Below, piece by piece: positions 1,561 through 34,580 of a stretch of 40,753 nucleotides of DNA. Both the position numbers and the translations under genes were made by a program. The notes beneath the pieces are model-generated. The model ran no database searches, was not told where the DNA came from, and worked only from the letters and a program-made list of their open reading frames with translations. The stretch lies in the IMG/VR virus record IMGVR_UViG_3300010885_052704, positions 1 to 40,753 of that record. One strand, given 5' to 3'. The DNA is from a virus. Position 1 is the first letter of the stretch. Every line of letters begins with the position of its first letter.

Positions 1561-2376
1561 ATGCCAATATCCACAAATGATATTAAGGAAACTGTTGAGA
1601 AAATAATTCTCAAAGACCAACAGGGTTATTTAAACTCCGAGCAGTACAACCGTATCATTAACCAAGTCGATAAAAAACTGTTTCAATATTACTACAAGAT
1701 TTACGAGCAAACACAAAACGTGGTGGATAGCATGAAGCCATTTATCACTCCCGTAAACCTTGCAGTAAATCCCGATGGCACTCTTGTGTTGCCATTGGAT
1801 TATGTCCACAGGCTAGAGCTAGGGTACATCAAAGCAGTCAACCCCGTATATACCGTTTATAGCTCATTTGCGGCATTGCAATGCGACATACAGCCCCGTG
1901 GCAATTATGGCTTAGATAGTTCAAGCATGGTGTTTTATAAAAGCACCGGCAAAGCATGGGTAGCAGTGCCACCGTTGTCCCCTGAGATAACATATGTTCC
2001 CATTGATTACATGAACTCCAATGAAGTGTTTTACACACTTAGCTCACCTATCCGCAAGCCAAACCTTGCCAAAAACATAGCTAGGCACGAGGAATTGGAC
2101 AACACTATAAAAGTGTACCCAATTGATATGAAGCAAGTGGTGCTAAAATATCTCCGTAGGACAACGCAACCATTTTGGAATAGCACTCCTGTGTCAACAG
2201 CCAACGGTGATTTTGAGCAATACAATCCCGTGGGCAGTATTGATTTTGAATGGCAGTATGAAAATTTCCAAGATTTAGTAGATTTGGTAATGTTTTATAT
2301 GGGTATGCAAACAAGAGAAACAGATTTGATTAAGTTTGCCCAAATGGATCAACAAGAACCGTTTATAAACAAGTAA
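1561..2376 (+). CDS. Putative tail ring/adaptor structural protein
   Basis: 271 aa. The N-terminus (residues 1-50) is helical and charged, followed by beta-rich segments with an LPLDYVHRLEL motif near residue 77 and an IKVYP...LKYLRR strand pair near 185-200. This arrangement resembles head-tail connector or ring proteins of crAss-like and related Bacteroidota podoviruses, judged by memory rather than alignment. The ATG at 1561 follows an A-rich leader (AATAAAAGTATGCA). One base separates it from the next gene, so the two are likely co-translated. Unknown-structural is the safer label if the ring assignment fails. Confidence 0.75.
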   Translation: MPISTNDIKETVEKIILKDQQGYLNSEQYNRIINQVDKKLFQYYYKIYEQTQNVVDSMKPFITPVNLAVNPDGTLVLPLDYVHRLELGYIKAVNPVYTVYSSFAALQCDIQPRGNYGLDSSSMVFYKSTGKAWVAVPPLSPEITYVPIDYMNSNEVFYTLSSPIRKPNLAKNIARHEELDNTIKVYPIDMKQVVLKYLRRTTQPFWNSTPVSTANGDFEQYNPVGSIDFEWQYENFQDLVDLVMFYMGMQTRETDLIKFAQMDQQEPFINK

Positions 2377-2377
2377 C

Positions 2378-2995
2378 ATGACAGTAGGCGAATTTGTTGA
2401 ACAGGTATTTATTTTGGTTGAGGGTGGTCAATTGACACAGGACACCAATATATTCCGAGAGGATATAAGGAACTATTTGCCTTCACTAGCCAATTACTTC
2501 ATTACCAAGCAATACTTCATCAACAAGCAAGATGGGGAAAGCATAGTGCCTTCTGATTTTATTGCTACCTACGAAGATGTGGAAGTGCTGTACGATGACC
2601 GCAGGGGCAAAAGTTATATTGAGCTACCTGTGCCATTGGTTACATTGCCAAAAGATATGGGTTTGCAAATGGTGTCCCCAATGAAAGGCACTTATACTTT
2701 TGCCAGGCTACCAATACAAGCGGAGCAACACATGGCAACGGTGTATCAAAATGTGCCCGACACTGTTTGGTATATGCTTGAGGGAGCCAAAGTATTTTTG
2801 ATTAACATACCCAAAGAAGTGGAAACATTGCTTGTTAGGACAGTGGTTAACATACACACCCTTTCGGACAATGATTATTTTCCTATCCCTAGTGGCGATG
2901 TTGTGGCTGCATTGGACAAATGTGTTGAATTTTTCTTGAAGCAAAAGGGGATTATGCCTGACCAAGGCAACGATAACAGGGAGGCTATACGATGA
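2378..2995 (+). CDS. Putative tail ring/adaptor structural protein
   Basis: 205 aa. It begins with a helical segment (VGEFVEQVFILVEGGQLT) and a second helix around residues 30-50, then a beta-rich middle (IVPSDFIATYEDVEV, SYIELPVPLVTLPKDMGL) and a helical C-terminus. This matches the general build of small connector/ring proteins in short-tailed phages. It is flanked by two similarly sized proteins of the same apparent class and overlaps the next gene by 4 bp (ATGA). No enzymatic motif is seen. The family call is by pattern and context. Confidence 0.7.
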   Translation: MTVGEFVEQVFILVEGGQLTQDTNIFREDIRNYLPSLANYFITKQYFINKQDGESIVPSDFIATYEDVEVLYDDRRGKSYIELPVPLVTLPKDMGLQMVSPMKGTYTFARLPIQAEQHMATVYQNVPDTVWYMLEGAKVFLINIPKEVETLLVRTVVNIHTLSDNDYFPIPSGDVVAALDKCVEFFLKQKGIMPDQGNDNREAIR

Positions 2996-3747
2996 TAACA
3001 TTGACAGAAATAGCACAAGATTGCTGCATGGAAGCCGGTGACGACAGTTACAAGCTGCAATACAGGATGACCAAGTTTTGCATAAGGGCATTTGCGGAGC
3101 TAAACACCTATGTCAACCCAACCAATGTATCTCATTTGATGCCGGTTCACCCCAATAGGACGGTGGATTTGCGCAATGACTGTTTGAAAGTATGGAAAGT
3201 GGGCATCCTTGTTGATGGCAGGATAATCACCATGGGCATTGATAACACCCTATCCGATATTGTTGTTGACCCGTGCCCTTGTGAAACCATTGATGAAGCC
3301 AATGCACGCATTGAGGAGCTTGCATTAGGCACAGAATTGGGCACTGTGCCCTTTGGCAACGTGTGGGCAGGTAACGTACCCATCGGCACATTTTTTGGCA
3401 TAGGAGCAGGTTTTAATGGCTTGGGCTATTACAAAGAGGATTATGCTAACAAAAGGATTATCCTTGAGCCACATTTTGACAGTATTAAGTACCCTGAGAT
3501 AGTGATACAGCAAAAAGTAAGTGGCTTGGGTAGCTCCATGAATGAGGTAAGGGATGAGCTAAGGCAGCCAATTATTGATTTTGCTTTGTCTAAGCACTTT
3601 ATGAGCACCAGCCCACCATTGTCGGATAGGTATTGGAGGAACTGGATGGATTCAAGAAACCTTGTGAAGAAATTGATATATACCCATTCTTTGCAACAAT
3701 TGCACGAGGACAATTTGAAGAACGATGTGAACGCTCCTAAGCGATGA
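2992..3747 (+). CDS. Putative tail tubular/adaptor protein (T7 gp11-like position)
   Basis: 251 aa. An N-terminal helical region with a Cys-Cys pair (residues 11-12) precedes the motif DLRNDCLKVWKVGILVDGRI (residues 60-79). This beta-hairpin-like element is common in tail-tube adaptor proteins of Bacteroidota podoviruses. The middle is Gly-rich (residues 125-145) and the C-terminal 60 residues are helical. The gene overlaps both neighbours by 4 bp and directly precedes the giant nozzle-like protein, the same order as the T7 tail tubular A/B pair. Role inferred from position and motif style. Confidence 0.7.
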   Translation: MITLTEIAQDCCMEAGDDSYKLQYRMTKFCIRAFAELNTYVNPTNVSHLMPVHPNRTVDLRNDCLKVWKVGILVDGRIITMGIDNTLSDIVVDPCPCETIDEANARIEELALGTELGTVPFGNVWAGNVPIGTFFGIGAGFNGLGYYKEDYANKRIILEPHFDSIKYPEIVIQQKVSGLGSSMNEVRDELRQPIIDFALSKHFMSTSPPLSDRYWRNWMDSRNLVKKLIYTHSLQQLHEDNLKNDVNAPKR

Positions 3748-6700
3748 ACAACAAAAAAAGCAGTACCAATAAGATGAAAGGGTCTTTAGACCAAGACACC
3801 GACATTCTGAGCGTGAATGACGAGAATTACATTTATGCTCTTAACATTACACCAACGCAAGCCACTGGCACTTACGACAAAATAACAAATATTAGTGGAA
3901 ACACCATAGTGCCTTTTGCGTTACCTTTTGGCAACAACAAGGTCATTGGGCAAGTGGTGGACAAGAAAATGAACACCATTATCTACATGGTGTGGAATAG
4001 CCAAAACAACCATAGCATATTAAGGTACTATTCGGATACCAACAGTATTCAGTTTGTGGCTCAATATGATTTCAAGTGGGAAGATAAGCCCATTACCAAC
4101 ATTAACCTAGTTGCAGGTCATTTGCTTTATTGGACTGATTTTGTGCCAAGAAAGATTGATGTTGATTTGGCAAACAATACGGGCAAAAAGTTCAAATGGA
4201 ACTTGGTTGTTACTGATAAATTCTTTGCCTTAAATGCTTTCAATGGCACCGGTCAATCACAGAGCCACATTTTTAATGCTGGCACAACCATAGATGATGT
4301 ATTTGCTTATTTAAATGCAAACAATACGTTTTCAAACTTTTTTCGCTCCTTGTTCACATACCAATTGTGCAATGGGGCATTGGAGATTGAGCAACTTACT
4401 CCACAAAACGGTGGCAATTTAACCACATTGGGTGGAGCGATATTTATTTCGCAAAACTTTTACCCCGTTATTACCGATAATTTAATTGATGCTGGAAAGG
4501 CTACTCAAAATATTCCACCTAGGGTTACATTAAAGTATGACCCATTAGCTGTATCAAACAATTTGAAAGACAAATTACCTTGGCAATTTAGAACAAGGTA
4601 TGTGTATGACAATTATGAAAGGTCGGTACTAAGCCCATATTCAGATATTGCGGTAGATTCATGCGGAAGGGATTACAATTATATAATTATTGATTACACC
4701 GCAAACATACTTAACAATCCCGATACCATAGGGTTAATAAAACAAGTAGAAATATATGCCCGTGAGGGAAATGAAGCAATTGCCGGCAGCACCATAGGGA
4801 AAGATAAGTTGATAAAAATTATTGACCAAAACGAACTATGGTTACAATCCCAAACCATTGGGCTAAACACTTTTAATTTTTACAATGATGGCGTTTACTC
4901 TGTGTTGGACGATGCTAAAAGTTTTCAGCAATACGATTCTATTCCAATACGCCCAACGGATGAACAATATTCCATATCTCAAACATTTGCTTCCAACAGG
5001 CTTATGTATGGCAATTTTGTGGAGAATTACGAACAACCATGCGACAATTCCACGGTAACAGCAGAGTTTGTGCCATTGGAGTACAGGGTGTTCAGGCTTG
5101 ACCTTGTTGTAAGAGTTGGTTGTTCAAGTCAATTTTTTGCCGGAGGATATTCAACAGGAACAGGAAGAATAGGGGCTATAATAAATCTTGGTCCAACATC
5201 TCTTGACCCACCCGTGCCTTCTATAAGCATGTTTGGTGGATGTTCAAATAAAAATATAGGAGCACCCGACCAAACAGACATAATGGGCACCGCTGCCGAC
5301 CAATGGCTTCCTGAAAACGGATGGCCAATATACATAGCCAATACGGATTATTTTGCCATATCATCTCAATTGCAAAATACAGGTCTTGCGTATAATACCG
5401 ACGGTTCAATAAAAGCAGAAAACGATACTCAAAAAGATTCAATTAAAAATTGGTATGATACCTATAATAGCCAAACTCAAACAGGGGACATGCTATCAAA
5501 AGCGTCTCTTATTGGGATACCTATTGGTAGGCATGTAATAAGGTTCGCTTCCCACCTATGTTCGTTTGAAGATAAAATGCAACGTGGACCAATGTACGAC
5601 CTTAACAATGGTCGCTCATATCAGCAGACATCTACCTATATGTGGGGATTTTTCAATCCTGATAGTCCGAGTTACGACCAAATAGGCGACTATGAGATTG
5701 AGGTGTTTATTGATGCACAGGGTAATTACGAGATAAGCGCGCCTGGATATGGTGTTACCCGAACAGGGGTAGCATCGGCTGATGGAGAGATATTTTTAGG
5801 TGAGGCTATTGTACGCGATTTAACTAATCCTCAATTTAATTATCAATACGAAAGAGGAAAGGCTCCAAAAAATCAATTTAATACAATTAATGGATATTTG
5901 TATGATGGCAATTTTTTAAACCCAACCAACAATGGCCTTCCATCAGATATTAAAAAAGGAAGGGCAATAGAAGCGCAAATAGTTCAATTGTTAAATGCTG
6001 ATTCGGCCTATCTATTGCAAAATCAAACTGCATATGATTATACAGATGTAGATTATGGATGCACAACTGACCATAATGGTTTTTTCTATTTTAGAAACTT
6101 CTATGAAAGTGTAGCAATAAGAGCTATTGGTGCCAATGGAAATTTTATAAAAACAGTTCTTGACAATTTTTTGATAGGTAATCTTAATAATTTAATTGCC
6201 GGAACTACTTATAACAACACAGTAAAAGTAGGGCCAGCCGATAATTATTGGGGAGTAAAAAACAAAACCACTCCAAGCAGCAATGATAGATTTGGCATTT
6301 GCAATACTATTGTATTGTACAACACCAATGTTGCATGGCATCAAAATTACCGTACAAGAATTAGTGGACAAGTCCAGAATACCGATGGCTCAGTAGTGCC
6401 AGGGGTGATTTGTTTGTATCAACGAACAGGATTTGGGGATACTACTGATGGCAATGGGGATTTTAATATTGTGTGTTATGCGCGAGCATTTAAAGGCACT
6501 TTAATTGGGTTACTATGGAATACCAATCAATTTATAGGATGGCAACAACAAAAACCAATTCAACAATACACATCAACAGAACCAGTAGGAAACGTTATTG
6601 ATAATTTAATTTTAAATAGCGGCATTACGTGTTTAACATTAGGAGCAACAAATTACGCACTGGAGCTATTGCTTGAGATAAATTATTTTGTCACTCAGTA

Positions 6701-8744
6701 CACAGATTTATTGCCATACAAACCGGCTTTTTTAAATCCAGTAGTTGCATCTAATGTGCCTGCCCATTTGGATAAGTACCTTAAAATGGGTGGCGTTTAT
6801 GGGTTAGCAATGATGCCTATTGACAGAATTAATCGTCGGTGTGCTATTGTGGTAAAACCTCAATTAAAACTTCCATTTTGGACTGAGAACGTACAAAAAT
6901 ATTATCCATACCTTGCTTCACAGCAAGCAATAGGTGCAGTTAAATTTACCCTAAACCTTGTTGACAAACCAGAAATATGGGAAACGGAAAGATATTTTTT
7001 AAGGACCACTAACCAACGTCAACAAAACTTTTTGCAATTTCCTGCATTTGATATTAAATATGTCATAAGTTACGATACTACGGCAGCATCAACTACCAAC
7101 CCTGCCGAAACCGTAATACAGGAAACAACTTACGAAACAAGGCAAGCAAATAGGATATGGATAGGCATACCAAAATCCATATTGGCATACAATAGATTTA
7201 AAACCGGCTCAAATAAATCATGGACATTTAGCGAAGGAGACAGGTTGATATTTAAAAACAATTTTGATGGTGCTTATTTTGCCGAATACATAAACGTATC
7301 TGTATTAGGAACATCGCCTGACCTTAATTATTTTATTATTGAAAGCCAAGATAGGTTTCCTCAATTAGAAAAAGGTGCAGTGTTTGAAATATATTCGCCA
7401 AATTTTAACGATATTCAAACGGAGCTATATTATGAGTTTCCAGTAGTTGTTCCTGTGCTTGACGCAGGCACTCCAAACAGAAGATTTGCCACAACAACGG
7501 TTGATTTAAACACGGGCGATACTTACCGAAGGGGCCGCATTGTTCCAATATTTGAAGGCGTAAATACTTCTTTAATAGAAGATGTGGCAGTAAGTGATTT
7601 TTACCCATCAACAGTGCAAGACATTGGAAGGTTTAATATTGACGACAATACTTTTGGTCAATTATTTAGAACCAATACGGTACGTTATTCCGAAAAATTC
7701 ATAAACAACACTAAACTAAATGGGTTAAGTGATTTTCAGGGATTGAGCGAAATTACTACCCCAATGGATTTTGGAGCACTAAACAAATTGATATTAACTT
7801 CGGATGCTCCAAGCGACCCAGGCGGTATGTCTAATAGGCAGGTAATGCTTGCTATCCACGTCAACAAAGCAGCATCCATATACATAGGGGAAGTTGTATT
7901 CAGTGATACGGCTGGTAGCGCTACGGTGTCCACATCAGACAAAGTGCTTGGCTCAATTAGGATGCTCAAGGGCGACTATGGCACTGTTAATCCTGAGAGT
8001 GTGGTGGCTTATGATGGGCTTGTGTTTTGGTGGGATGCCATCAGGGGCAAAACGGTCCAATATGCTCAGGATGGGCTAACAGCGGTACAGGACTATAAAA
8101 TGATTAGTGCCGGTGAAAGGTGGAAAAGCCAATATGGTGGACAACGTGCTTTTGGTATGATAGACCCATATAATTACACATACTACCTAACATTGGGCGA
8201 CAGACAAAAGGAAACGGTAGGATTTAACTATGCAAAGAACGGATGGCAAAGCTATTATTCGTTCACTCCTGAAAATTATTCGTATATTGGCACTACATTG
8301 GTATCGTTCCGAAGTGGGGAGCTATGGCTGCATAACAGCAATGTGTTCAACAATTTCTACGGCACACAATATAGCAGTCAGGTAAGAGTGGTGAGCAACT
8401 TAGCAGAATTGACATTAAAATTGTTCTTTAACTTTAGAGAAGTGGCTAGTGGCAAGTGGTGGATGCCTGAGATAACAACGGTGCCCAACGCAAGTTACCC
8501 AACGGGAATGTTGTCAAGGCTAAAACCTGATAACATGAGCTTGAAGGAAGGTGATATATGGGGTTCGTTTTTGAAAGACATTAACGACCCTGCTTTCACG
8601 GGTCAGCCACCAATCAACGCTTTGCTAAAAGGAAGGAATTTGAGAGGAGAATGTCTTGTAATGACATTGCAAAACGATAGCACAGCACTAGCATGGATAA
8701 GGAGCATACAGGTATTTGTTAGCCCAAGTGAAAATACGATATAA
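3744..8744 (+). CDS. Giant tail nozzle/tubular (muzzle-like) protein with an inserted carboxypeptidase-regulatory-like domain
   Basis: 1666 aa. The N-terminus (ENYIYALNIT, then a propeller-like motif HLLYWTDFVPRKIDVDL near residues 131-148) is characteristic of the large nozzle proteins that close the short tails of crAss-like and T7-like phages. Around residues 870-915 lies a module reading SGQVQNTDGSVVPGVICLYQ...TTDGNGDFNI, which fits the carboxypeptidase-regulatory-like (transthyretin-type) beta sandwich common in Bacteroidota surface proteins. The rest is beta-rich with many aromatic residues. Parts of the middle (about 5100-7700) use more AT-rich codons than the two ends. It overlaps its neighbours by 4 bp and 1 bp. 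Role inferred from size, position and motifs. Confidence 0.8.
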   Translation: MNNKKSSTNKMKGSLDQDTDILSVNDENYIYALNITPTQATGTYDKITNISGNTIVPFALPFGNNKVIGQVVDKKMNTIIYMVWNSQNNHSILRYYSDTNSIQFVAQYDFKWEDKPITNINLVAGHLLYWTDFVPRKIDVDLANNTGKKFKWNLVVTDKFFALNAFNGTGQSQSHIFNAGTTIDDVFAYLNANNTFSNFFRSLFTYQLCNGALEIEQLTPQNGGNLTTLGGAIFISQNFYPVITDNLIDAGKATQNIPPRVTLKYDPLAVSNNLKDKLPWQFRTRYVYDNYERSVLSPYSDIAVDSCGRDYNYIIIDYTANILNNPDTIGLIKQVEIYAREGNEAIAGSTIGKDKLIKIIDQNELWLQSQTIGLNTFNFYNDGVYSVLDDAKSFQQYDSIPIRPTDEQYSISQTFASNRLMYGNFVENYEQPCDNSTVTAEFVPLEYRVFRLDLVVRVGCSSQFFAGGYSTGTGRIGAIINLGPTSLDPPVPSISMFGGCSNKNIGAPDQTDIMGTAADQWLPENGWPIYIANTDYFAISSQLQNTGLAYNTDGSIKAENDTQKDSIKNWYDTYNSQTQTGDMLSKASLIGIPIGRHVIRFASHLCSFEDKMQRGPMYDLNNGRSYQQTSTYMWGFFNPDSPSYDQIGDYEIEVFIDAQGNYEISAPGYGVTRTGVASADGEIFLGEAIVRDLTNPQFNYQYERGKAPKNQFNTINGYLYDGNFLNPTNNGLPSDIKKGRAIEAQIVQLLNADSAYLLQNQTAYDYTDVDYGCTTDHNGFFYFRNFYESVAIRAIGANGNFIKTVLDNFLIGNLNNLIAGTTYNNTVKVGPADNYWGVKNKTTPSSNDRFGICNTIVLYNTNVAWHQNYRTRISGQVQNTDGSVVPGVICLYQRTGFGDTTDGNGDFNIVCYARAFKGTLIGLLWNTNQFIGWQQQKPIQQYTSTEPVGNVIDNLILNSGITCLTLGATNYALELLLEINYFVTQYTDLLPYKPAFLNPVVASNVPAHLDKYLKMGGVYGLAMMPIDRINRRCAIVVKPQLKLPFWTENVQKYYPYLASQQAIGAVKFTLNLVDKPEIWETERYFLRTTNQRQQNFLQFPAFDIKYVISYDTTAASTTNPAETVIQETTYETRQANRIWIGIPKSILAYNRFKTGSNKSWTFSEGDRLIFKNNFDGAYFAEYINVSVLGTSPDLNYFIIESQDRFPQLEKGAVFEIYSPNFNDIQTELYYEFPVVVPVLDAGTPNRRFATTTVDLNTGDTYRRGRIVPIFEGVNTSLIEDVAVSDFYPSTVQDIGRFNIDDNTFGQLFRTNTVRYSEKFINNTKLNGLSDFQGLSEITTPMDFGALNKLILTSDAPSDPGGMSNRQVMLAIHVNKAASIYIGEVVFSDTAGSATVSTSDKVLGSIRMLKGDYGTVNPESVVAYDGLVFWWDAIRGKTVQYAQDGLTAVQDYKMISAGERWKSQYGGQRAFGMIDPYNYTYYLTLGDRQKETVGFNYAKNGWQSYYSFTPENYSYIGTTLVSFRSGELWLHNSNVFNNFYGTQYSSQVRVVSNLAELTLKLFFNFREVASGKWWMPEITTVPNASYPTGMLSRLKPDNMSLKEGDIWGSFLKDINDPAFTGQPPINALLKGRNLRGECLVMTLQNDSTALAWIRSIQVFVSPSENTI

Positions 8745-9589
8745 TGGCAGATGATTTAAGCACAGGCATAGGAGCGGCCACACAGATTGGTTCAGCCATC
8801 CCTTTTATTGGGGGCGCAATAGGCGCAGCGGGAAACATTTTCCAGCTAGTCAATGCTGCTAGCCAAAACAAAAAAGCCGACCAATTACAATCCCAATACC
8901 AAAGGCCCACAAGGACTATAAGCCCTGCCATGCAACAGGCTATGTCTATTTATCAAAACCTTGCAGGGCAAAGGATGATGCCAGGGCAGCAAAACACCCA
9001 AAACCAAATAGGGGCTAACACGGCTCAGGGCATCAGGGCTATCAGCCAAACAGCGGATAGCCCAGCGGCACAGTTGGCAGCAATAAGCGGGTTGGTGGGC
9101 AAACAGAATGATAGCTACAACAACCTTGGCGCACAGGCAGCCCAATGGCAAAACCAAAACCAACAAAATTTGGCAGGGTTTAATGCAGGAGCCATGAATA
9201 CTGAGCAACAGAACAATTGGCAATACAACCAATATGCGCCTTATGCAGCGGCAGGAGCCGCAGCCAGTTCGCTCAGGGGAGCTGCTATGCAAAACCAAAA
9301 CAATGCGGTGCAAGGGTTGAGCAATGTGTTTATCAATTCGCTCAAAGGCTACCAAGGGCTAGGCACTAAAAATACTAATCCAGGGAAACTTGATACTTCC
9401 ATGGTAACATGGGGGCAACAGCCAACAGGCTCACAATCTACAAGCATGCTATTGCCGGCACAACCTTTAACAAGTAGGCCAGCCAATAACATACCAAATG
9501 ATATACAAGGCTATTACCCAACAGACCAATTGGCTCCAAATACCCCTGATTACTTTACTAACTTGCAAGACCAATCTATTGGGCTATGA
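8744..9589 (+). CDS. Putative internal virion/ejection protein, Gln/Asn/Ala-rich
   Basis: 281 aa. Residues 8-37 form a Gly/Ala-rich hydrophobic stretch (IGSAIPFIGGAIGAAGNI) that could enter a membrane. The rest is rich in Gln, Asn and Ala with long low-charge helices (NNLGAQAAQWQNQNQQNL). This composition is typical of small internal core proteins of podoviruses, such as the T7 gp14 type, which leave the virion and form a channel. The start overlaps the last base of the nozzle gene and the end overlaps the next gene by 4 bp. The ejection role is inferred from composition and position. Confidence 0.65.
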   Translation: MADDLSTGIGAATQIGSAIPFIGGAIGAAGNIFQLVNAASQNKKADQLQSQYQRPTRTISPAMQQAMSIYQNLAGQRMMPGQQNTQNQIGANTAQGIRAISQTADSPAAQLAAISGLVGKQNDSYNNLGAQAAQWQNQNQQNLAGFNAGAMNTEQQNNWQYNQYAPYAAAGAAASSLRGAAMQNQNNAVQGLSNVFINSLKGYQGLGTKNTNPGKLDTSMVTWGQQPTGSQSTSMLLPAQPLTSRPANNIPNDIQGYYPTDQLAPNTPDYFTNLQDQSIGL

Positions 9590-11202
9590 TACAAGGCAAT
9601 CCAAGCATAGACCCTAATTTCATTGATGCCGCAGGCACTATTGGCCAAGGGGAGGCACAGATATTGCCTAACGTATATGATTTGGGCAAAGACGTAGCTT
9701 CATTAGTACCTAAGCCTGTTAAACCTGTAACCATTAACCCAACATTGCCCAAGACAGGCGGTTGGAGCGTTGACCAACCAGAATTGGGCACACACTATAA
9801 CAACCTAGCATCATTTGCTGCCAAAAATGCGGCAGGTCCAAATAAAATTGATGTTACCAATGCGGCTCAATCACCAGAAGGATGGAGATTGTATAACCAA
9901 GGCACAAATGAATATTTGCAAAATGTGCAAAAATCCACTCAGGATGAAGCGTTGTATAATGCAGCCATTAAGCAAGCTTCTGATTTAAAAAGCCAAGAGA
10001 AAATAGAAAACTATGATGACTATTTGAAAAGCCTAAGTGATTGGAAAGCTCAGGGTTTGGCAAGGAAAGATATTCCTATGCCTAAAACAAAGACACCCGA
10101 ATTTAACGAGGGAAAATACATTAAAGAATATGTGCCTCAAATAAAAGCAGGCGATGTGTCTGAAACAAAATCAACCCATAATAAGAAAACTAATCGAATA
10201 GAAAACTTAACAACAACTAGCTATTCATTGCCAAACCAACTACAACACGCACATGATTATTTGCTAACACCAGAAGTAGCGGCATATAATCAAAAGCAAT
10301 TTGATGCGTTATCGCCCGACCAACAAGATTTGTATAAAGGAATTGCTGACCAAGCAAACCAAAAAGCAGATGAGAAAATTTGGGCAGAAAACCCACAATA
10401 CCAAGGCAAAGCATTGTCCGATTATAATCCCATAGAAGCATTTGTAGCAGATAAGAAATTGCAGCCACATTTTACTACTAAATCCCAATGGGGTAGCAAT
10501 AGCATCCCGCAACAAACAGGCGCAGGGGCAGGAGCAAACAAAACAACCGTAGTAACTCCTTCTCAAGGTGGCCAATTTATATATGCCAACATTGGAGGGA
10601 AACCTATTTCTACTGACCAAACTACTGTTTACGATGTGGGCAAAGTAGGTGGTAACAAAAGTGTTCAGTTTACCCCTACTATGGTTTTTGATTCCCAAAC
10701 GGGTGTAAAAAATAATAAGCCTGCATTTCCTATTAAAGGAACAATAAACAGGCTAATAGGCATCCCTAATAAAATTGGTTGGGATGGCCAACCAGAAAAA
10801 GGATGGGATGGCAAAACAAAAGATTGGTTTGCTGAAATATCTGTGCCATTAAACGCAAATGATGTAAAAAAAGAACAACAAAGTGTATTTGCGGAAAACG
10901 CAAAACTAGATAACAGCGACCCTAACAAAGAAAAATGGGACAGCCCAAGTGATGTTCCAGAAGAAAGGTTGCAATCACAAAATAAGCTTGTTGTTGTTCC
11001 TGCTTCTGACATAAAACAAACGCTAACAAATTCTAAAATTGAGCTGCAAGGATGGGATCAAAATGCGCCATCAACTAAGCCAACATCAGCCACTCAAAAA
11101 GCAGGAGCGCCAATAAAAGTAACAAGCAGGGAACAATACGACAAAATACCAAAAGGAACGCCAATTATTGATGCACAAGGAAATGTAGGAGTTAAGCCAT
11201 GA
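9586..11202 (+). CDS. Unknown virion-block protein, possible internal protein
   Basis: 538 aa, no recognised domain. The N-terminal 250 residues are helical and hydrophilic with many Asn and Gln. The C-terminal half contains beta-like Gly-rich segments (TVYDVGKVGGNKSVQFTPTM) and a Lys-rich region. There is no signal peptide or membrane helix. It sits between a candidate ejection protein and a 1173-aa protein, with ATGA overlaps on both sides, so it is probably a virion component, possibly part of the ejected set. Function not recognised. Confidence 0.6.
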   Translation: MIQGNPSIDPNFIDAAGTIGQGEAQILPNVYDLGKDVASLVPKPVKPVTINPTLPKTGGWSVDQPELGTHYNNLASFAAKNAAGPNKIDVTNAAQSPEGWRLYNQGTNEYLQNVQKSTQDEALYNAAIKQASDLKSQEKIENYDDYLKSLSDWKAQGLARKDIPMPKTKTPEFNEGKYIKEYVPQIKAGDVSETKSTHNKKTNRIENLTTTSYSLPNQLQHAHDYLLTPEVAAYNQKQFDALSPDQQDLYKGIADQANQKADEKIWAENPQYQGKALSDYNPIEAFVADKKLQPHFTTKSQWGSNSIPQQTGAGAGANKTTVVTPSQGGQFIYANIGGKPISTDQTTVYDVGKVGGNKSVQFTPTMVFDSQTGVKNNKPAFPIKGTINRLIGIPNKIGWDGQPEKGWDGKTKDWFAEISVPLNANDVKKEQQSVFAENAKLDNSDPNKEKWDSPSDVPEERLQSQNKLVVVPASDIKQTLTNSKIELQGWDQNAPSTKPTSATQKAGAPIKVTSREQYDKIPKGTPIIDAQGNVGVKP

Positions 11203-14200
11203 GTGAAGAACAAGGATTTGTAATACCGCAAGAGGCAAGGACATCTGTAAAAAAAGATGAGGGATTTACTTTGCCCACAGAAGCAATGACCCAACCTGTT
11301 AACTTAAAAAAAAAGCCTTCTACGCAAGATGGCTCAACTGGCTCACAAGCTGGCACATCAGAAGCCCCTTCTACCGAGAATAAAGGGCTTGAAATTATGG
11401 GTGCTACATTACAACCACCCCAAGAGCCACAAGCTCCAACAGGGGCAATAGGGGCACCGCAACCAACACCATCAACAGGTGCTCCTGTGGGCGTAAATAG
11501 CCAAGGGGCTACCGTGATTCAAACAAAAAAGCCATTATCTGTTACCAATGCCAAAGAGGCAGCACAATCGCTTGTTGATTATGGTAACAAAGCCGACCAT
11601 TTAACCAAGATACAGCACGTAATGGGCGATGTGGTATCTGACCCCAATGTAGCAGAGTACATGAGCCTGCTTGACCATTTGAACGATTTGCAATCAAAAG
11701 GCGACACACAAGGCGTTCAAGAGGCATTGCCATACCTACATGAGCTATCACAAAGAAAAGCTCAAAATGGCTCTACGGTGGAGCAAAACATGCGTTTCCT
11801 AAAAGACACCCATGCTCAATCGCAAGAGATAGCTAATGACCTGCAACAGCACCAAGAAGAAATGAAACAGGTTGGGGATGCTTTGCAAAAAAACGATTTT
11901 GAAAGCAAATTGACTTTTGGTCAAGGAGCTAAAAAATTGGCTATTGATATAGCAAAAGCACCATTGGATGTTCTTAGTGGCATAGCCCCCGCAGGCGGTG
12001 ATTTAGAATATGCTACCCAAGGGCTAAGAAAAGGATTGGAAGCACACGAGCCTGAGCCTGAAACGGATTATGTGCAAGGAGCTTTTGGTGCCATTGCAAA
12101 AGTACATGAAGATTTCTTTAAAACCATTGCCTCTACTGAAAAATTATTGGGCGGCACGAATGAAAATTCATGGGCTAAAAAAGCTGCCGATTATTACACA
12201 ACGGTAGGCAAAGAAACAAAACAAGCCCCAAACACCCTTGGTGGCAAAATAGCCACAGGGCTAGGAGCATCAATACCGTTCCTTACCAAAATAATGGCAC
12301 TTCCCGAAGCGTTGCCGGCTAAATTTATAGCATTGTCGGCTGCATCTGCCGCAGGGGATAAGCTGAATGAGATAGAAGAAAAAACACCGGAACAAAGCAA
12401 CCTAAGCAAAATAGGCGAAATTGCAAAAGAAGCGTTAATTGGCGGAGTAAAAGCCGTTCCTTACGAGGTGTTTACGCACCTGCCCCTAAATGGCTTTTGG
12501 AAGCCAGGAGCAGCCGTTGGATTGACAGGTGTGTGGGATATAGCCAAAGACCCCGAAAAAGCCTCTGATGCCGTTGCAAACATGATTATCATGGGTGCTA
12601 TGTCATTGGGTGATACCAATAATAAAGCAGGGGTAATAGATGGTGAAAAAATCCAAAAAATAAAGGATAAAATCTCGTCTATCACCTCATCAAAGCTAAA
12701 TGCTGACGATGCCGGTGCCATCCTTGCATCCGTGGAGCAAAACATCAAAAATATCCATGGAGCAACATTTACCAACGCAGGCGAAGAATATGGCACAGAA
12801 ACTTATCTCAAGCTATTAAAAGCTAAGATTAAAAGCGGCACTAGCATTTTTGATGCAGTGAAATCACTTACCCCTGAGCAAAGGGAAGGATTGTTGAAAG
12901 ATGAAAAATTGCCCCAATCTTTACGTGAGAAGCTATCGCAAAACATTGTTGCTGAGAAAGTGGGTAAAAAGATTGGCGAAAATGGGCAAGTAATTACTCC
13001 CGAAGGCACATTTTATTCAGCTCCCGATGATGTAATTGGTGGCGCAATCAACACACCCGGCACAGTTGAGGAGCTAAGGGCAAAAGCCCAACAAGCCACA
13101 GCCAATGCTGAAATTGGTGATGACAAAGCAAAGTGGATTACCGTTGCCGAAACAACCAATAAAATTGCTGACATCAAAGAAGTGTCCCAAAACATAGCTA
13201 GGAATTGGGAAAAACACATTGAAAATATTGATGCTGACGAAACATTGTCCCCTGAGCAAAAGCAGGCAATGAAAGACAAGGTTTATAGCGCAAGAAACCA
13301 AGCAGACCCAAGGCTAAGTGGTATCACTAGGCTCAAAGCCGAAATTGAGCAAATGAAAGCCGATATGGCTAAAACGGATGGATTGCCACCAGAGGTAATC
13401 CAAGCCCGTAACGCTAAGATACAAGAGCAAATTGATACCAATATTAAGCACATAGGGGAACTTAGCAACAATGTTGTTGAACAACCCGTACCCACCTATG
13501 ATCAGCTCAATCCACCAATGGAAAAGATTGCTGATTTGGCGGCACGTATTGCCAAGGGAGAAAAAATAACTAGCCTTGAGGACTTGCAATTGCAAGCAAA
13601 CAACCCAGAGGCTATTGAGCAAGAATTAGCAAAATTAAAAACCGAAGAAAATGCCGTACAAAAGCAAAGCCCAAGCAGCGAAGTTTCACCTAATGGAGAA
13701 ACAGGGCAAAATATCCCCGAAAGTGGTCAAGGAGTTCGACCAAGCGAGCAAGGGCAAGAAGTTGCCCCAACGGGTGAAGCCCCACAAGGCGAAGTAAAGC
13801 CTATTGACCAAGAGGGTGAACCAGCAAAGCAAGAAACACGTGAAACCGTCTATAATGACGAGGAAAACCCACATGATATTCTTATAGATGAACATGGCAA
13901 CTGGAAATATGCTGACAACCAACCCGAAGGAGCTACGCCACAAAACAAAATAGATTGGGATGCCACAAATAAAGCGGCGGCAAAAGTTCATTCGCAAAAT
14001 TTGTTGGACGCACTCCATTCTGAATTTGGGGGCAAATACTCAACACAGGAAACGAATTGGGTGGATGAGGATGGCGACCCCGTTACAATGAAATTGCGAA
14101 TCGCAGACCATAGTGAGAATAGGGCAGCAGGTCGAGGTGGAGATGATTACCTTAGCTTTGTAACAGACAAATACGATAACACAGCAAATAAGTTTTCGGG

Positions 14201-14720
14201 TAGCCGCTCATATCGCAATACCAATATTAGCGAAATGTCCCCATCGGAAGCAATTGCCCATATCAAAGAGGAAATTGCAAACTACCGCCCGACTGATGCC
14301 AAAGAAAACGGATATACAGAAAAGCAAAATATTAGTGAACCAGTAAAACCAAAAACCAATGAAGAAAGCAATGAAAGTAGCAGCAAAAGTAGTGAAAGCG
14401 GTCAAGAAGGTGGAGTCAACCAAAAAAGACCTGAAACAGGACCTGAAAATGTCCAAGAAAATGAGGTAGCAGGAGAGGCAGGGGTTAAGAAAGCCCCTGC
14501 CGAACTCGAAACAAGCCAATCCAAGTTCCAAAAGGCTACGGAGCTAAAGGATGCCATTGATAATGCTGAGGACACCGCTAGCAAGCGTGAATTAGCCAAA
14601 GAAAGGCGTACCTTTATGGAGGAAAACCCATCTATCAAACACATAGATGATAACATAAGTAAGATTACAATGCAACTTGAAGAACAAGGATTGTTAAAGA
14701 AAAAAGGCAATTGCCCATGA
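11199..14720 (+). CDS. Large multi-domain virion-block protein, possibly ejected/polyvalent
   Basis: 1173 aa. Residues 1-100 are Pro/Thr/Gln-rich and look disordered. Residues 150-330 are helical. Residues about 345-480 contain Ala/Gly-rich hydrophobic segments (GLGASIPFLTKIMALPEALP, DAVANMIIMGAMSLGD). Residues 500-830 are helical and charged, and a Glu/Gln/Pro-rich linker follows. Residues about 880-1040 form a compact domain (MKLRIADHSENRAAG, DDYLSFVTDKYDNTANKF) reminiscent of the modules carried by polyvalent proteins of mobile elements. The tail is Ser/Glu-rich then helical. It is probably a virion-internal protein delivered with the DNA; this is inferred from architecture, and no catalytic motif is identified. 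Confidence 0.6.
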   Translation: MSEEQGFVIPQEARTSVKKDEGFTLPTEAMTQPVNLKKKPSTQDGSTGSQAGTSEAPSTENKGLEIMGATLQPPQEPQAPTGAIGAPQPTPSTGAPVGVNSQGATVIQTKKPLSVTNAKEAAQSLVDYGNKADHLTKIQHVMGDVVSDPNVAEYMSLLDHLNDLQSKGDTQGVQEALPYLHELSQRKAQNGSTVEQNMRFLKDTHAQSQEIANDLQQHQEEMKQVGDALQKNDFESKLTFGQGAKKLAIDIAKAPLDVLSGIAPAGGDLEYATQGLRKGLEAHEPEPETDYVQGAFGAIAKVHEDFFKTIASTEKLLGGTNENSWAKKAADYYTTVGKETKQAPNTLGGKIATGLGASIPFLTKIMALPEALPAKFIALSAASAAGDKLNEIEEKTPEQSNLSKIGEIAKEALIGGVKAVPYEVFTHLPLNGFWKPGAAVGLTGVWDIAKDPEKASDAVANMIIMGAMSLGDTNNKAGVIDGEKIQKIKDKISSITSSKLNADDAGAILASVEQNIKNIHGATFTNAGEEYGTETYLKLLKAKIKSGTSIFDAVKSLTPEQREGLLKDEKLPQSLREKLSQNIVAEKVGKKIGENGQVITPEGTFYSAPDDVIGGAINTPGTVEELRAKAQQATANAEIGDDKAKWITVAETTNKIADIKEVSQNIARNWEKHIENIDADETLSPEQKQAMKDKVYSARNQADPRLSGITRLKAEIEQMKADMAKTDGLPPEVIQARNAKIQEQIDTNIKHIGELSNNVVEQPVPTYDQLNPPMEKIADLAARIAKGEKITSLEDLQLQANNPEAIEQELAKLKTEENAVQKQSPSSEVSPNGETGQNIPESGQGVRPSEQGQEVAPTGEAPQGEVKPIDQEGEPAKQETRETVYNDEENPHDILIDEHGNWKYADNQPEGATPQNKIDWDATNKAAAKVHSQNLLDALHSEFGGKYSTQETNWVDEDGDPVTMKLRIADHSENRAAGRGGDDYLSFVTDKYDNTANKFSGSRSYRNTNISEMSPSEAIAHIKEEIANYRPTDAKENGYTEKQNISEPVKPKTNEESNESSSKSSESGQEGGVNQKRPETGPENVQENEVAGEAGVKKAPAELETSQSKFQKATELKDAIDNAEDTASKRELAKERRTFMEENPSIKHIDDNISKITMQLEEQGLLKKKGNCP

Positions 14721-15208
14721 AACCAACAAAACTATCACCAGAAGTCGTTAACCTCTTGTTGCCAAGGCTCAAAGATGAGTTCAACGCATTTTATTTTTAT
14801 CGCTCAGCAACCAATTGGTGCCAAAACGCAGGCTTTTTCAAAGCAGCCAAGTTCTTTGCCAAAGAGAGCGAAGATGAGCTTACCCATGCCAAAAAGATTG
14901 AGGACTACCTTGTTGATTGGAACGTGATACCGGCACTACCGGTGATAGCACAACCAATAGTGTTTTCGGGGCTATATGACATCATTACCAAAGCCTATGG
15001 CATAGAGTATGAGCTATATGAAGCCTACGAGGACACTAGTTCCAAAATATTCAAGACAGGCGACCTTTGCGTGTTTGACTTCCTGCAATTTTATAGGCAG
15101 ACACAAAAGGAATCCGTAGCCGAATATAGCGACAAGCTGAATTTATTGGAGGGCACTGAAACAAAAGACAAATTCCAACTATTGATGTTGGAGAAAAAAC
15201 TGTTCTGA
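14717..15208 (+). CDS. Ferritin-like di-iron protein
   Basis: 163 aa, about the length of a bacterial ferritin subunit (around 165 aa), predicted as a four-helix bundle. Helix A carries Glu21 with Tyr26 and Tyr28 (KDEFNAFYFY). Helix B carries the ExxH motif Glu54-x-x-His57 (ESEDELTHAKK). Helix C has Glu97 and Glu99. Helix D (FLQFYRQTQKES) keeps the Gln130 and Glu132 positions of bacterial ferritins, while Ser133 stands where a further Glu is usual. Most ferroxidase ligands are therefore visible. The ATG at 14717 overlaps the upstream stop (ATGA), and the next gene begins one base after its stop, so it is embedded in the virion operon. Iron storage or oxidation is the family role; a virion or host-iron role is inference. 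Confidence 0.85.
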   Translation: MKPTKLSPEVVNLLLPRLKDEFNAFYFYRSATNWCQNAGFFKAAKFFAKESEDELTHAKKIEDYLVDWNVIPALPVIAQPIVFSGLYDIITKAYGIEYELYEAYEDTSSKIFKTGDLCVFDFLQFYRQTQKESVAEYSDKLNLLEGTETKDKFQLLMLEKKLF

Positions 15209-15209
15209 A

Positions 15210-18200
15210 ATGGCTGAACCTTGTATATACACTTTTAAGGGCAAAGAATATTCCTATGACGAGTTTACATCCATGCTCCATGATGGGCTATTGGATGACT
15301 TTGTCAAAAGTGGCAACATAAGCAAGGATTTGGCTATGCCTGAGAATATTGCGGCACAAAAGCCCATGGCAGGCGAGAAGCCCGTGGAAAAAGAAAAAGC
15401 TACTGAGCCATCAGGCAAATTTGTTGGTTTATCTAATGAAGAAACGGCTACGCTAAGAAAAGCACTAGGACTGAATGAGCGACCAAGCGTAGAAACAAAG
15501 GCAGATGAAAAGACTTTGGGTGTGGCTATGGATAGAATGGCCAAAGACCCAAACTATACCGACAATTTGGTTCAAGATTATTTAGATGCCGAAAAAAACG
15601 GGGAGCAATTCTTTGTTGATGATGCAGGGTTAATGGCACTGGCAGCCAAAAGGGTTAGCTTAGAAACCCAAGTATTGCAAGCAGAAAGCAGAATGGAAGA
15701 AGCTCAAAAATCGGGCGATAAAGAGGCTGAAAAAGCAGAGCAAAAAAATATTGATAGGGCAAACGAGAAGTTGCAATTAATAGCAGAGGCGGCAGAGGCA
15801 ACAGGAACAACCACGGCAAGGGCATTAAGGATACGCCAATTGCTAATGAGCGAGGATTATTCATTGAGCGGAGTTAAACAAATGTTTAAGAAAGCCAAAG
15901 GAGTTGAAGCTACCCCCGCACAACAAGCCGAAGCTAAAGCTAAAGTAAAAGAGCTTGAAGATGTAAATAAAGCCCTTAAAGAAAAGGTAGATCAAATACA
16001 AAAAGCGTTGGATGAGGCTGCTAAAAAAGCCGAATCAAAAGCACCAAAAGCACCAAAGGGTACAGGAAAAACTTATACAGAAAAAGCTAAAGTAGCAGCA
16101 GATAAATTTAGGACATTAAAATCAAAGCCATTTGTTTTTAAAGATTCCAATGGCAATGAGATAGAAGTACACACTAATGGTCCTACATGGAACAGTGCTA
16201 TTGAGATTGGCGCAAAAGCCATTGAGGAATCAGGCAAAATTGCCGATAAAATAACCGTTGGGGTAAAAGCGGCTATTAATCATATAAAAGACCAAGATTG
16301 GTACAAAAAACTTTCCGAGGAAGATAAGGCAAGGTTTGAATCGGAACTAAAAGACCATTATACCCGCGGCAACGAAGAAACTATCCAAAAAAAGATAACC
16401 TCTCTTGAGACTAAATTGAAAAATCTTGAGGAAGGCATCAAAAAAGAACCAAACAAAAAGCTTACAAAAGAAGAAGATGAGCGCATTGTTGCTTTAAAAG
16501 ACCGTATTGAAAATTTCAAAAAAGAACAAGCGGTACAAGCAAAGATTACCAAATTATCTGACGAGTTATCCAATATCCAAAAAGGCATAAAAGAGCCAAA
16601 AACAGAAACAGAAAAAAAGATTGAGGACAAACGAATCCAAGGGCTAAAAGACAAAATCAAAGATGCCAAAAAAGAGCAAGGCACCCTTGAGCGAGTATCT
16701 AAGCTAAACCAAGACTTAGAAGATTTGCAAAATGGTGTTAAAAAAGAACCTACCACTAGCGAAAAAAGAGCCGAAGATAAAAGGATAGCAGAAGTAAAAC
16801 AAAAAATAGCTGATGCAAAATCCGAAATAGCTACCCAGAAAAAAATAGCCAAATTATCAGAAGAACTTAGCGATGCTGAAAAAGGCATCAAAAAACCCAA
16901 ACCTTTAGCAGAAAAGAAAATTGAAGATGAGCGCATACAAGCAATAAAAGATAAAATCAAAGATGCTAAAGCAGAGCAAGCTACACAAGAAAGGCTAGCA
17001 AATTTACAAGAGCAACTTGAAGATATTGAGGCAGGAGTTGAGAAAGAAACTGCGCCAAGAGAGCAAAAGGCAGAGGATGCAAGGATTGCTGCCAAGAAAG
17101 AAGAAATAGCTCAAGCCCGCAAAGAGCAAGCTATTCAAAAGCGTGTTGCCGATATTGAGCAAGAAATAGAGGATGCTAAAAATGGTGTTGCTAAAACACC
17201 ATCCGAAAAGCAAGTGCAAGATGACCGTATTGTAGAGGCTCAGCAAAGGTTGGCAGAAACAAGGCAAGAGCTTCGTGATCAACAAAAATCTACTACCGAA
17301 GCCGCAGAAAAAGAAAGGAAGCTAACGCAATTTGAGGGCAAAACCGACAATAAATTCACTATTCAAGAGGCAAAAGATATTTTTGACCACATGAAAGAGA
17401 ATTATATTGACCAAGGAGTTGAACTGCATGATGCTTTTAATAGGACAGCCAATGATTTAGGGCTGTCAAATGACCAAATCTTAGAAGCGTTTAAAGTAGA
17501 CACCAAAGTAAAATCCCTTACCAATCAAGCATACTTGTTGCAAAACAGGAGAATGGCAGCCAAAGCCGATATTAAACGATGGATAGACGAAGCCAATAGG
17601 CCACCTTGGGAAAAGAAAGCAAAACAGATATTAAGGCTACCAACCAATATATCTGTGTTTGGGCACGGAACGGTAGGTATGATAACCCACGCAGCAGAAT
17701 TGCTTCGCGATCCAAAATATTGGAGGACATGGTTTCCTGCTTTTGCTAGGCAATTTAAATATTCTTTTGGGGGCATTGGTGAAGCAGGTCGTGTTAAGTA
17801 TGAATTGGCAATGGCCAAATTAAAAGACCACCCAAGGTACAGTTTTTGGAAAAGAAATGGGCTTGCTGTTGACCCTGCCAAAAAATACGATGATTACATC
17901 CCTAAAGATGGATTCTTTGGCAAAGCGGCAGCCATTGGCGACAGGGGATTCAATGTGCTGAAAGAAGTACGATTGGATTTAGCTGAAAGCATGTGGAACG
18001 AATTGACCCCTGAGCAAAAAGCTGCGCCAGGCATGGCTAAAATGATTGCCGAAACAGCGAACAACATGACCGGCACAAATCAATTTGCTATCAAGGGTGC
18101 AGCGGGAACAATAGTAAATGAAGGCATATTTGCTCCAAAGTTAATGGCATCAAGGTTTAACAGGATATTAAAAATGCCTGTAACCACGTTATCCACTGGA

Positions 18201-18872
18201 TTGAAATCGCTTGGTGGTTATGCTACCCCTGTTGAGCGAGCCGAAGCCAAATTTTTTGCCAAAAGTGCTGGAAGGCAAATAGCATTTTACATGGGCACGC
18301 TTGCCGCTAGTGCAGGAATACAACAAGCATTAGGCTCAAAAAACAAAGTAAATTTTACAGACCCATCAAAATCTGATTGGCTCAAGCCAAAAATAGGCAA
18401 CAAATCAATAGATGCTACGGGTGGCATGTTATCCACCGTAAGATTTTTGGGTCAAGTGGGGCAAATAATATTCACTTCTAAAAAAGATTTGCCTTCTTAT
18501 CAAAAAGACAGAAAAAAAGCAATGGAGTCATTAGTGTCTCAATTTGTTAGACAAAAACTTTCGCCTACCGCATCAACCATTTATGATTTTGCATCAGGCA
18601 AAGATTATGAAGGCAATGTAATGCCATGGCGAGAGGATAAACCTAGTGAAGGAAAGCACAAATTGACTTTTTTAGAATACTTGCTTAAACATGAAGTGCC
18701 AATACCAGTAGCCGAAGCGGTAAATGATATAGCAGAATCCATGAAAGAAGCAGGCGTTTCAGCACCAACCACTTATATGGTAATAATGGGCATAATGAAT
18801 GGTGCTTTCCAAGGAGGCACGGGCATAAAAATAAAAGAGCAACACGTGGAAAAACACAAATCAAGGCAGTAG
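15210..18872 (+). CDS. Large coiled-coil virion-block protein with six 50-residue repeats
   Basis: 1220 aa. The first 45 residues (YTFKGKEYSYDEFTSMLHDG) resemble the opening of polyvalent or ejected phage proteins. Residues 120-290 are helical and Ala/Glu/Lys-rich. Residues 396-694 are six tandem 50-residue coiled-coil hairpins. Residues 700-1200 form a helical, more hydrophobic domain (PTNISVFGHGTVGMITHAAE; ATPVERAEAKFFAKSAGRQ). No membrane helix is obvious except Ala/Gly-rich segments near residue 1030. The start is one base after the ferritin-like stop. It is followed by a promoter, so this gene closes the first virion transcription unit. A role as an elongated internal or ejected protein is inferred. 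Confidence 0.65.
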   Translation: MAEPCIYTFKGKEYSYDEFTSMLHDGLLDDFVKSGNISKDLAMPENIAAQKPMAGEKPVEKEKATEPSGKFVGLSNEETATLRKALGLNERPSVETKADEKTLGVAMDRMAKDPNYTDNLVQDYLDAEKNGEQFFVDDAGLMALAAKRVSLETQVLQAESRMEEAQKSGDKEAEKAEQKNIDRANEKLQLIAEAAEATGTTTARALRIRQLLMSEDYSLSGVKQMFKKAKGVEATPAQQAEAKAKVKELEDVNKALKEKVDQIQKALDEAAKKAESKAPKAPKGTGKTYTEKAKVAADKFRTLKSKPFVFKDSNGNEIEVHTNGPTWNSAIEIGAKAIEESGKIADKITVGVKAAINHIKDQDWYKKLSEEDKARFESELKDHYTRGNEETIQKKITSLETKLKNLEEGIKKEPNKKLTKEEDERIVALKDRIENFKKEQAVQAKITKLSDELSNIQKGIKEPKTETEKKIEDKRIQGLKDKIKDAKKEQGTLERVSKLNQDLEDLQNGVKKEPTTSEKRAEDKRIAEVKQKIADAKSEIATQKKIAKLSEELSDAEKGIKKPKPLAEKKIEDERIQAIKDKIKDAKAEQATQERLANLQEQLEDIEAGVEKETAPREQKAEDARIAAKKEEIAQARKEQAIQKRVADIEQEIEDAKNGVAKTPSEKQVQDDRIVEAQQRLAETRQELRDQQKSTTEAAEKERKLTQFEGKTDNKFTIQEAKDIFDHMKENYIDQGVELHDAFNRTANDLGLSNDQILEAFKVDTKVKSLTNQAYLLQNRRMAAKADIKRWIDEANRPPWEKKAKQILRLPTNISVFGHGTVGMITHAAELLRDPKYWRTWFPAFARQFKYSFGGIGEAGRVKYELAMAKLKDHPRYSFWKRNGLAVDPAKKYDDYIPKDGFFGKAAAIGDRGFNVLKEVRLDLAESMWNELTPEQKAAPGMAKMIAETANNMTGTNQFAIKGAAGTIVNEGIFAPKLMASRFNRILKMPVTTLSTGLKSLGGYATPVERAEAKFFAKSAGRQIAFYMGTLAASAGIQQALGSKNKVNFTDPSKSDWLKPKIGNKSIDATGGMLSTVRFLGQVGQIIFTSKKDLPSYQKDRKKAMESLVSQFVRQKLSPTASTIYDFASGKDYEGNVMPWREDKPSEGKHKLTFLEYLLKHEVPIPVAEAVNDIAESMKEAGVSAPTTYMVIMGIMNGAFQGGTGIKIKEQHVEKHKSRQ
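16395..17291 (+). repeat. Six tandem 150-bp (50-residue) coding repeats
   Basis: Units start at protein residues 396, 446, 496, 546, 596 and 646; the last is slightly shorter. Each unit has an amphipathic helix, a Gly-[Ile/Val]-Lys/Glu turn (GIKKEP, GIKEPK, GVKKEP, GIKKPK, GVEKET, GVAKTP), then an EDxRI motif and a second long helix. The repeats have diverged at DNA level but the register is exact, suggesting old duplications kept for structure. Confidence 0.9.
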
Positions 18873-27683: not shown

Positions 27684-27731
27684 CCCCTGCATTGTCCTTT
27701 TAGGTTTAGGAAGGTTGAGCCGATGCAGGGG
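27684..27731 (+). promoter_or_regulatory. Hairpin that encloses the methyltransferase start codon
   Basis: CCCCTGCAT (27684-27692) pairs perfectly with ATGCAGGGG (27723-27731), and inside it CCTT (27696-27699) pairs with AAGG (27711-27714). The ATG of the methyltransferase (27723) lies in the 3' arm, so folding of the mRNA would hide the start. No T-run follows, so a terminator is unlikely; translational control is the natural reading. Confidence 0.6.
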
Positions 27732-34076: not shown

Positions 34077-34580
34077 ATGGCACTATCACTATATCACATA
34101 TCCCAAGAACACATGGACCTGCACAGGCAAATAGAAGCCTGTGCGGATGAGTTAACCCCTGAGCTAGAAGAAGCACTGTTGCTTAATGAGCAAGACTTTG
34201 AAGAAAAAGCCATAAGCTATGGTTTCCTGATAAAAAGGCTACGGGATGATGCTAAGACTGCCAAAGCAGAAAAAGAGCGCGTGGCGGCCATAGAAAAGCG
34301 TTACAACACCCAAGCAGATAGGCTTGAGTTTAATTTGCTCAATGCTATGCACACTTTTGGATTTAATGATGGCATCAAAACACCATTGCTAAAATTGTCC
34401 ATTATGAAATCAAAAGCCTTGATTGTGACCGATGAAACATTGGTGCCGGTGGATTATAAAACCACGGAAACAGTCACAAAAACCATTGTGGATAACAAGC
34501 GCCTAAAGGCTGACCTGATTGATGGGGCTGAGTTGGAAGGAGCCTACATTGAGGTGCGTGATAACCTGCAAATAAAATAA
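34077..34580 (+). CDS. Siphovirus Gp157-like protein
   Basis: 167 aa. The long N-terminal coiled coil (residues 15-85), followed by a beta-rich end (TPLLKLSIMKSKALIVTDET) and a closing IEVRDNLQIK, matches the Gp157 family found next to recombination genes in many phages. Family members have been linked to phage resistance in streptococci and to DNA metabolism, but their mechanism is not settled. It is part of the SSB-RusA unit. Confidence 0.75.
   Translation: MALSLYHISQEHMDLHRQIEACADELTPELEEALLLNEQDFEEKAISYGFLIKRLRDDAKTAKAEKERVAAIEKRYNTQADRLEFNLLNAMHTFGFNDGIKTPLLKLSIMKSKALIVTDETLVPVDYKTTETVTKTIVDNKRLKADLIDGAELEGAYIEVRDNLQIK

Follow-up and report, generated by a model that had tools for sequence, protein, structure and literature searches.

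Iron in phage particles is an open question that has so far been tied to tail proteins, in that the Ferrojan Horse hypothesis places iron in tail proteins serving receptor binding. Phage-encoded members of the ferritin superfamily have been described: Dps and Mn-catalase occur in the Gratiaviridae and Flandersviridae, phages of gut Bacteroidetes (PMC8008677), Dps occurs in Lactobacillus phages (PMC6669764), and a Dps-domain protein of SU10 was seen in PEG-concentrated, not gradient-purified, particles (PMC4281155). The giant eukaryotic viruses of the NCLDV encode a ferritin for which a role in iron management in the course of infection has been proposed (PMC7136201). Two routes by which phages carry proteins with their genome are also relevant here. 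In T4, a capsid-targeting sequence (CTS) of about 10 amino acids is enough to package foreign proteins, and the protease gp21 trims N-terminal peptides off IPI-III and Alt (PMC9958956, PMC3012670). The other route is predicted for polyvalent proteins, whose genes lie near virion genes: injection along with the DNA (PMC5512222).

The locus described here encodes a ferritin within a virion gene block. The window is the whole stretch of viral DNA that was analyzed, 40,753 nucleotides corresponding to positions 1 to 40,753 of IMG/VR record IMGVR_UViG_3300010885_052704. Among open-licence papers, none was found on this clade of Ftn-type ferritins, on placement in a virion block, or on capsid-targeting peptides on ferritin. 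Phage Dps proteins were known before; the gene placement is the new part.

The ferritin gene and its di-iron site

The ferritin gene (14717..15208, + strand) is an open reading frame of 163 amino acids that starts with ATG at 14717. The sequence ATGA (14717..14720, + strand) overlaps the ferritin start with the stop of the upstream 1173-aa gene (11199-14720), so that four nucleotides are common to both, and a single base separates the ferritin stop from the downstream 1220-aa gene, which begins at 15210. The preliminary description had reported both spacings, and they were confirmed; read from the sequence, the overlap and the one-base gap have the geometry of translational coupling.

Pfam Ferritin (PF00210) matched the protein at 1.1e-17 (64.8 bits, curated cut-off 24.5), phmmer matched it to H. 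pylori ferritin at 5e-15, and the nearest solved structures were H. pylori and E. coli-type ferritins. This match to ferritin is far above chance. The score against the NCBIfam FtnA equivalog was 48.7 bits, below the cut-off of 178, and bacterioferritin identity was rejected with an equivalog score of 18.9 bits where 125.6 were needed; because neither equivalog cut-off was reached, the protein is classed as a divergent Ftn. Identity as Dps was rejected as well, as a fifth helix is present and every di-iron ligand lies inside one subunit.

The AlphaFold model, generated from an input alignment of 18 viral homologues, had a pLDDT of 91.8 and a pTM of 0.86 and comprised four long helices followed by a fifth, short one (residues 152-162). 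The top Foldseek match of the model was V. cholerae ferritin (TM 0.90), and VIA-align gave a Z of 22.5 and an rmsd of 1.6 across 158 residues. The preliminary description had claimed a full-length ferritin-like subunit and proposed structure prediction as a check. Indeed, the Pfam and phmmer matches and the predicted ferritin fold, a four-helix bundle with a fifth helix, bear out that claim, and the reading frame at 14717-15208 is a genuine Ftn-type ferritin. In the viral structure library a few uncultured-phage proteins were already labelled ferritin. Separately, three BFVD entries annotated as 'prohead protease' of uncultured phages (A0A6J7XDU5, A0A6J7WPK9 and A0A6J7WIS1) matched the fold of the ferritin model, which suggests, from the modeled structures, that a Dps-like domain is fused to a head protease in these proteins.

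Residues E21, Y28, E54, H57, E97 and Q130 were identical in 66/66 distinct viral ferritins in the alignment. We take these to be E17, Y24, E50, H53, E94 and Q127 of EcFtnA/HpFtn, with the equivalences drawn through the phmmer alignment of the window protein. Glutamate was present at position 99 in only 7/66 and at position 132 in only 16/66 of the distinct viral ferritins; because these positions vary, E99 and E132 are not to be counted as ligands. Thus, of the ligands listed from the window sequence in the preliminary description, Glu21, ExxH at 54-57, Glu97 and Gln130 were retained and the other two were removed. Loss of ligands in relatives, which had been named as evidence against a ferritin, was seen at E99 and E132 and at none of the di-iron ligands. 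Of the third iron site (site C) of FtnA, the equivalents of E126 and E130 were lost in all viral ferritins, and the equivalent of E129 was variable. Pairwise dN/dS of the viral ferritins ranged from 0.035 to 0.23, a pattern that indicates purifying selection on the gene in the relatives. Because of the fold, the invariant ligands and the low dN/dS, the ferritin is considered constrained and is predicted to be, probably, an active ferroxidase.

Gene neighborhoods of the viral ferritins

Relatives of the window ferritin were encoded by at least 156 distinct IMG/VR contigs recovered in three scans, some of them near-identical. In 84,980 GTDB bacterial and archaeal genomes none was confirmed by pattern scans with the A1 and A3 queries, a method that could miss diverged bacterial ferritins. 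In INPHARED, tblastn with three different viral ferritins returned no relative. Because that search was empty although the muzzle-like gene of the window has relatives in 79 INPHARED records, the isolated relatives, which include phi38:1, elemo and Panino, are taken to be without ferritin.

The isolated viruses closest to the window virus infect Bacteroidota. The gene order of the window's virion block (1561-18872) resembles gp095-gp101 of Cellulophaga phage phi38:1 and gp24-gp18 of Flavobacterium phage elemo; sequence matches link the virion protein and the muzzle-like protein to their counterparts, a weak one does so for the downstream giant, and the others correspond by position. The genes of the block described below are all on the + strand. 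The first encodes a virion structural protein of 271 aa (1561..2376; phrog_14543, 7e-10), related to phi38:1 gp095 and elemo gp24, and is followed by the gene for a muzzle-like virion protein of 1666 aa (3744..8744; phrog_14478, 8e-26; weak PF25729; blastp 2e-16 to phi38:1 gp097). A small hydrophobic, glycine-rich protein of 281 aa (8744..9589), recognized by sequence and position, is possibly a T7 gp14-like ejection protein. The next gene, of 538 aa (9586..11202), equals phi38:1 gp100 in position and size, with no sequence match found between the two; gp100 is deposited as a structural protein, and structural-protein status in phi38:1 is throughout that of the deposited annotation. The ferritin sits in the portion of the block with the largest proteins, between an upstream giant of 1173 aa (11199..14720), which has a conserved C-terminal tail, and a downstream giant of 1220 aa (15210..18872), which has the conserved N-terminal module MAEPCIYTFKGKEYSYDEFTSMLHDGLL. 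Both are presumed virion cargo; neither matched Pfam or PHROG, and the downstream giant had a short, weak match to phi38:1 gp101 (E 5e-5). Elsewhere in the window, the replication part contains two DNA methyltransferase genes (27723-29276 and 35732-36349), and a Mu Gam-like end-protection gene lies at 34077-34580.

A survey of neighboring genes, also proposed in the preliminary description, found that the tight run with virion-block genes recurs in relatives. Four settings (A to D) were distinguished, with gaps mostly of -8 to +33 nt. In setting A, that of the window, the ferritin lies between two giants with gaps of about -8 to +24 nt. In setting B a giant of about 2900-3300 aa is followed by the ferritin and then, where assigned, by an endolysin. 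In setting C the ferritin adjoins head genes. In L080 it follows a portal gene (phrog_113) and precedes one for a MuF-like minor head/DNA pilot protein (phrog_220); in L075 it follows a portal gene (phrog_21) and precedes an unassigned 331-aa gene; and in L079 it stands between a portal- and NUDIX-like gene and the gene for a head maturation protease (phrog_1028). The portal-like protein directly upstream of the ferritin in L079 carries a NUDIX hydrolase domain. Setting D consists of T4-like jumbo contigs. In a tree of 90 ferritins, group D formed a single clade (100/98) with L079 adjoining, and group B was nested inside group A. The TerL marker PF03237 had no match in 28 contigs, and the kinship of the phages was not settable by TerL. 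Ferritins of groups A and B were approximately 54-75% identical to that of the window; because the giants beside them were barely alignable, nothing else in the surrounding region is as well conserved as the ferritin.

The ferritins of groups A-C, including that of the window, were without an N-terminal extension, and we infer packaging of the window's own ferritin from placement only. The same observations suit an unpackaged enzyme, expressed late, that would bind iron from host breakdown and limit oxidative damage to replicating or packaging phage DNA, its position in the virion block serving timing and dose. Tight placement in a late operon gives timing without packaging, the ferritin of group B adjoins endolysin genes, and phage Dps and Mn-catalase have been read likewise (PMC8008677). 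However, the ferritin is not scattered over the late region but is repeatedly found next to portal, MuF-like or protease genes, and we regard the unpackaged enzyme as a serious possibility that is nonetheless rather less than an even bet.

The giants that meet at the ferritin are conserved at their ends. The C-terminal tail of the upstream giant (about aa 1107-1173, ending in NCP) was conserved in relatives that were otherwise divergent; in the upstream giants this tail closes with a Cys-Pro-like motif (..GNCP; window 14517-14720), and the N-terminal module of the downstream giants reads MAxPCxIxFxGKEYSYDEFxxMLHDG (window 15210-15330). Conserved ends were seen in the window, L032, L036, L037, L050, L056, L070 and L096, and look as if they were docking elements. 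The N-terminal module had no convincing match in INPHARED. In L037 and L050, two giants with the same kind of ends meet at a junction that lacks a ferritin.

A ferritin located where a conserved tail meets a conserved module could be a structural or assembly part, its fold acting as a dock or scaffold between the two giants and its iron chemistry secondary or lost. We consider this very unlikely, as the di-iron ligands are invariant across lineages, the ferritin-less junctions possess terminal modules of the same kind, and the ferritin is retained beside quite different neighbors.

Several giants of groups A and B were related to elemo gp18 (3694 aa, deposited as 'structural protein'), and polyvalent or helicase domains were found in flanking giants (LPD23 in L045, LPD38 in one member, and a helicase in L098). 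Both neighbors of the L096 ferritin match elemo gp18; descent of the two from a single giant gene that the ferritin has split was considered and rejected, as domain order differs between phages. The sequences suggest that the giants on either side of the L096 ferritin share modular ancestry, and nothing further is claimed.

N-terminal peptides in the T4-like jumbo phages

The T4-like records tested over two rounds numbered 25, 24 of them distinct (L102 was tested twice). A match to the gp21-family protease was found in 17 and to gp23 in 18 of the T4-like records tested (E<=0.001); some ferritin contigs were thus without a detected gp21. The cleavage consensus of gp21 is (L/I)xE. Most T4-like ferritins had N-terminal extensions resembling the capsid-targeting propeptides of T4, as in L194 (MKTKLKTLNE/LQSA), L192 (MNNKLNLLNE/IQPA), L101 (...REIKRRGLME/QEDD) and L105 (...QLFKAIKLNE/QKSG), where the slash follows the site. 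An [LIM]xE site was present in 24/30 clustered long extensions compared with 12.6 +/- 2.6 after shuffling, and 0/5000 shuffles reached as high a count, although shuffling alone yields such a site in 42% of clusters. Some T4-like ferritins had a short extension or no [LIM]xE site, and an N-terminal targeting peptide with such a site was absent from the window's own ferritin.

A strict CTS regular expression matched only the ferritins themselves, and enrichment tests were used instead. In G022 and G015, eight CTS-like N-termini were found in each, compared with internal-control means of 1.2 and 0.5, respectively, among them MVKLIDILNE/, MIKLTDILNE/A and MVKLLQLLTE/A; 5/8 of the CTS-like genes in each lay within ten genes of the ferritin. 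The ferritin of G015 is one of its five nearby CTS-like genes, and that of G022 narrowly misses the pattern. The enrichment in G022 and G015 is exploratory, as the broader CTS-like pattern was chosen after viewing the neighborhood, and an [LIMV]NE-only pattern showed no genome-wide enrichment in either. A looser N-terminal site was enriched approximately twofold in G003, G001, G004 and G005. Many small proteins with propeptide-like N-termini were observed in these T4-like jumbo contigs (G003, G001, G004 and G005, which are L116-L146, and G022 and G015, which are L227-L241), for example MKKVIRLTESDLTRIVKRVINE/Q, MKIIITE/SQ and MVKLIDILNE/. To judge from their sequences, these could be families of prohead-protease propeptides, possibly marking a large internal proteome.

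Most T4-like ferritins bear an apparent capsid-targeting propeptide with a predicted cleavage site. Propeptide-like N-termini that cluster with similar genes argue against an unpackaged enzyme. That explanation, the main rival to packaging, accounts for groups A-C almost equally well, though not for the propeptides of group D.

Proposed function and comparison with known systems

The proposed function is that the ferritin is translated with virion cargo and packaged, catalytically intact, as an internal virion protein that protects DNA; we consider the chances for and against it evenly balanced. The Ftn-type subunit, with its complete di-iron site, would oxidize Fe2+ and store ferric iron in the cage. 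Late in infection the ferritin would be translated together with the giant virion-cargo proteins and would enter the virion as an internal protein. It would keep the levels of free Fe2+ and peroxide near the genome low, and Fenton damage with them, both while the particle is assembled and afterward within it. The same protection could extend to entry, provided that single subunits are ejected. The tool results behind packaging are the fold, the ligands, purifying selection, placement across lineages and the propeptide-like N-termini of the T4-like ferritins; from these we infer ferroxidase activity, cage assembly, packaging and the protective role.

The 24-mer ferritin cage measures approximately 12 nm (about 120 Å). 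The tail channel of crAss-like phages is <50 Å, and Crassvirales cargo is thought to pass through it partly unfolded (PMC10136315). Because the cage is wider than such a channel, an assembled ferritin would stay in the head. More tentatively, at a little under an even chance, a whole clade spanning crAss/phi38-like podoviruses, phages with other portal types and T4-like jumbo phages may package a working ferritin in the capsid, the T4-like phages by means of a targeting peptide cleaved by the prohead protease and the others alongside virion cargo.

An intact di-iron site could also carry iron, as in a ferritin-type Ferrojan Horse in which an iron-loaded protein exposed on the particle engages the iron-uptake receptors of the host. 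Such a carrier is scarcely credible: the protein is a bare ferritin domain without a receptor-binding, tail-fiber or display domain, it is surrounded by genes for cargo and head proteins, and the extension in T4-like phages suggests a destination inside the capsid. An internal or late protein fits the ferritin better than the Ferrojan Horse does.

A conserved ferritin with cargo, portal and MuF-like genes, together with an apparent capsid-entry peptide in T4-like phages, provides a concrete gene for the question of iron in virions, one that can be checked by mass spectrometry. If the ferritin is packaged, these phages would protect DNA from iron chemistry within the virion, move an iron-binding protein through habitats and hold a natural protein cage inside the capsid. 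This would amount to a dedicated system of iron and oxidation control built into the virus particle.

The FtnA proteins of E. coli, H. pylori and V. cholerae share with the window ferritin the four-helix bundle with a fifth helix and the intra-subunit di-iron ligands (TM 0.87-0.90). Unlike them, the viral ferritin, at 24-29% identity in fold alignments, has lost third-site ligands and is encoded by a phage, next to virion genes. Phage Dps and Mn-catalase are likewise members of the ferritin superfamily carried by phages and proposed to handle iron or oxygen damage (PMC8008677, PMC6669764, PMC4281155), but they belong to other branches of the superfamily, and the Dps genes of Lactobacillus phages and SU10 are found among replication or middle genes, outside the virion block. 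The large polyvalent and crAss-like cargo proteins resemble several of the giants that flank the ferritin in relatives, in that these have LPD or helicase domains, or are similar to a giant deposited as structural; the ferritin differs as a separate small gene beside giants, and the window's giants are without a domain match. T4 IPI-III and Alt have, like the ferritins of T4-like jumbo phages, a short peptide at the N-terminus that includes a gp21-type site, whereas here the cargo is a ferritin, its cleavage is predicted from sequence, and the window protein is without the peptide. The NCLDV ferritin differs from the phage ferritin in that it belongs to viruses of eukaryotic hosts and has been described within the metabolism of the infected cell.
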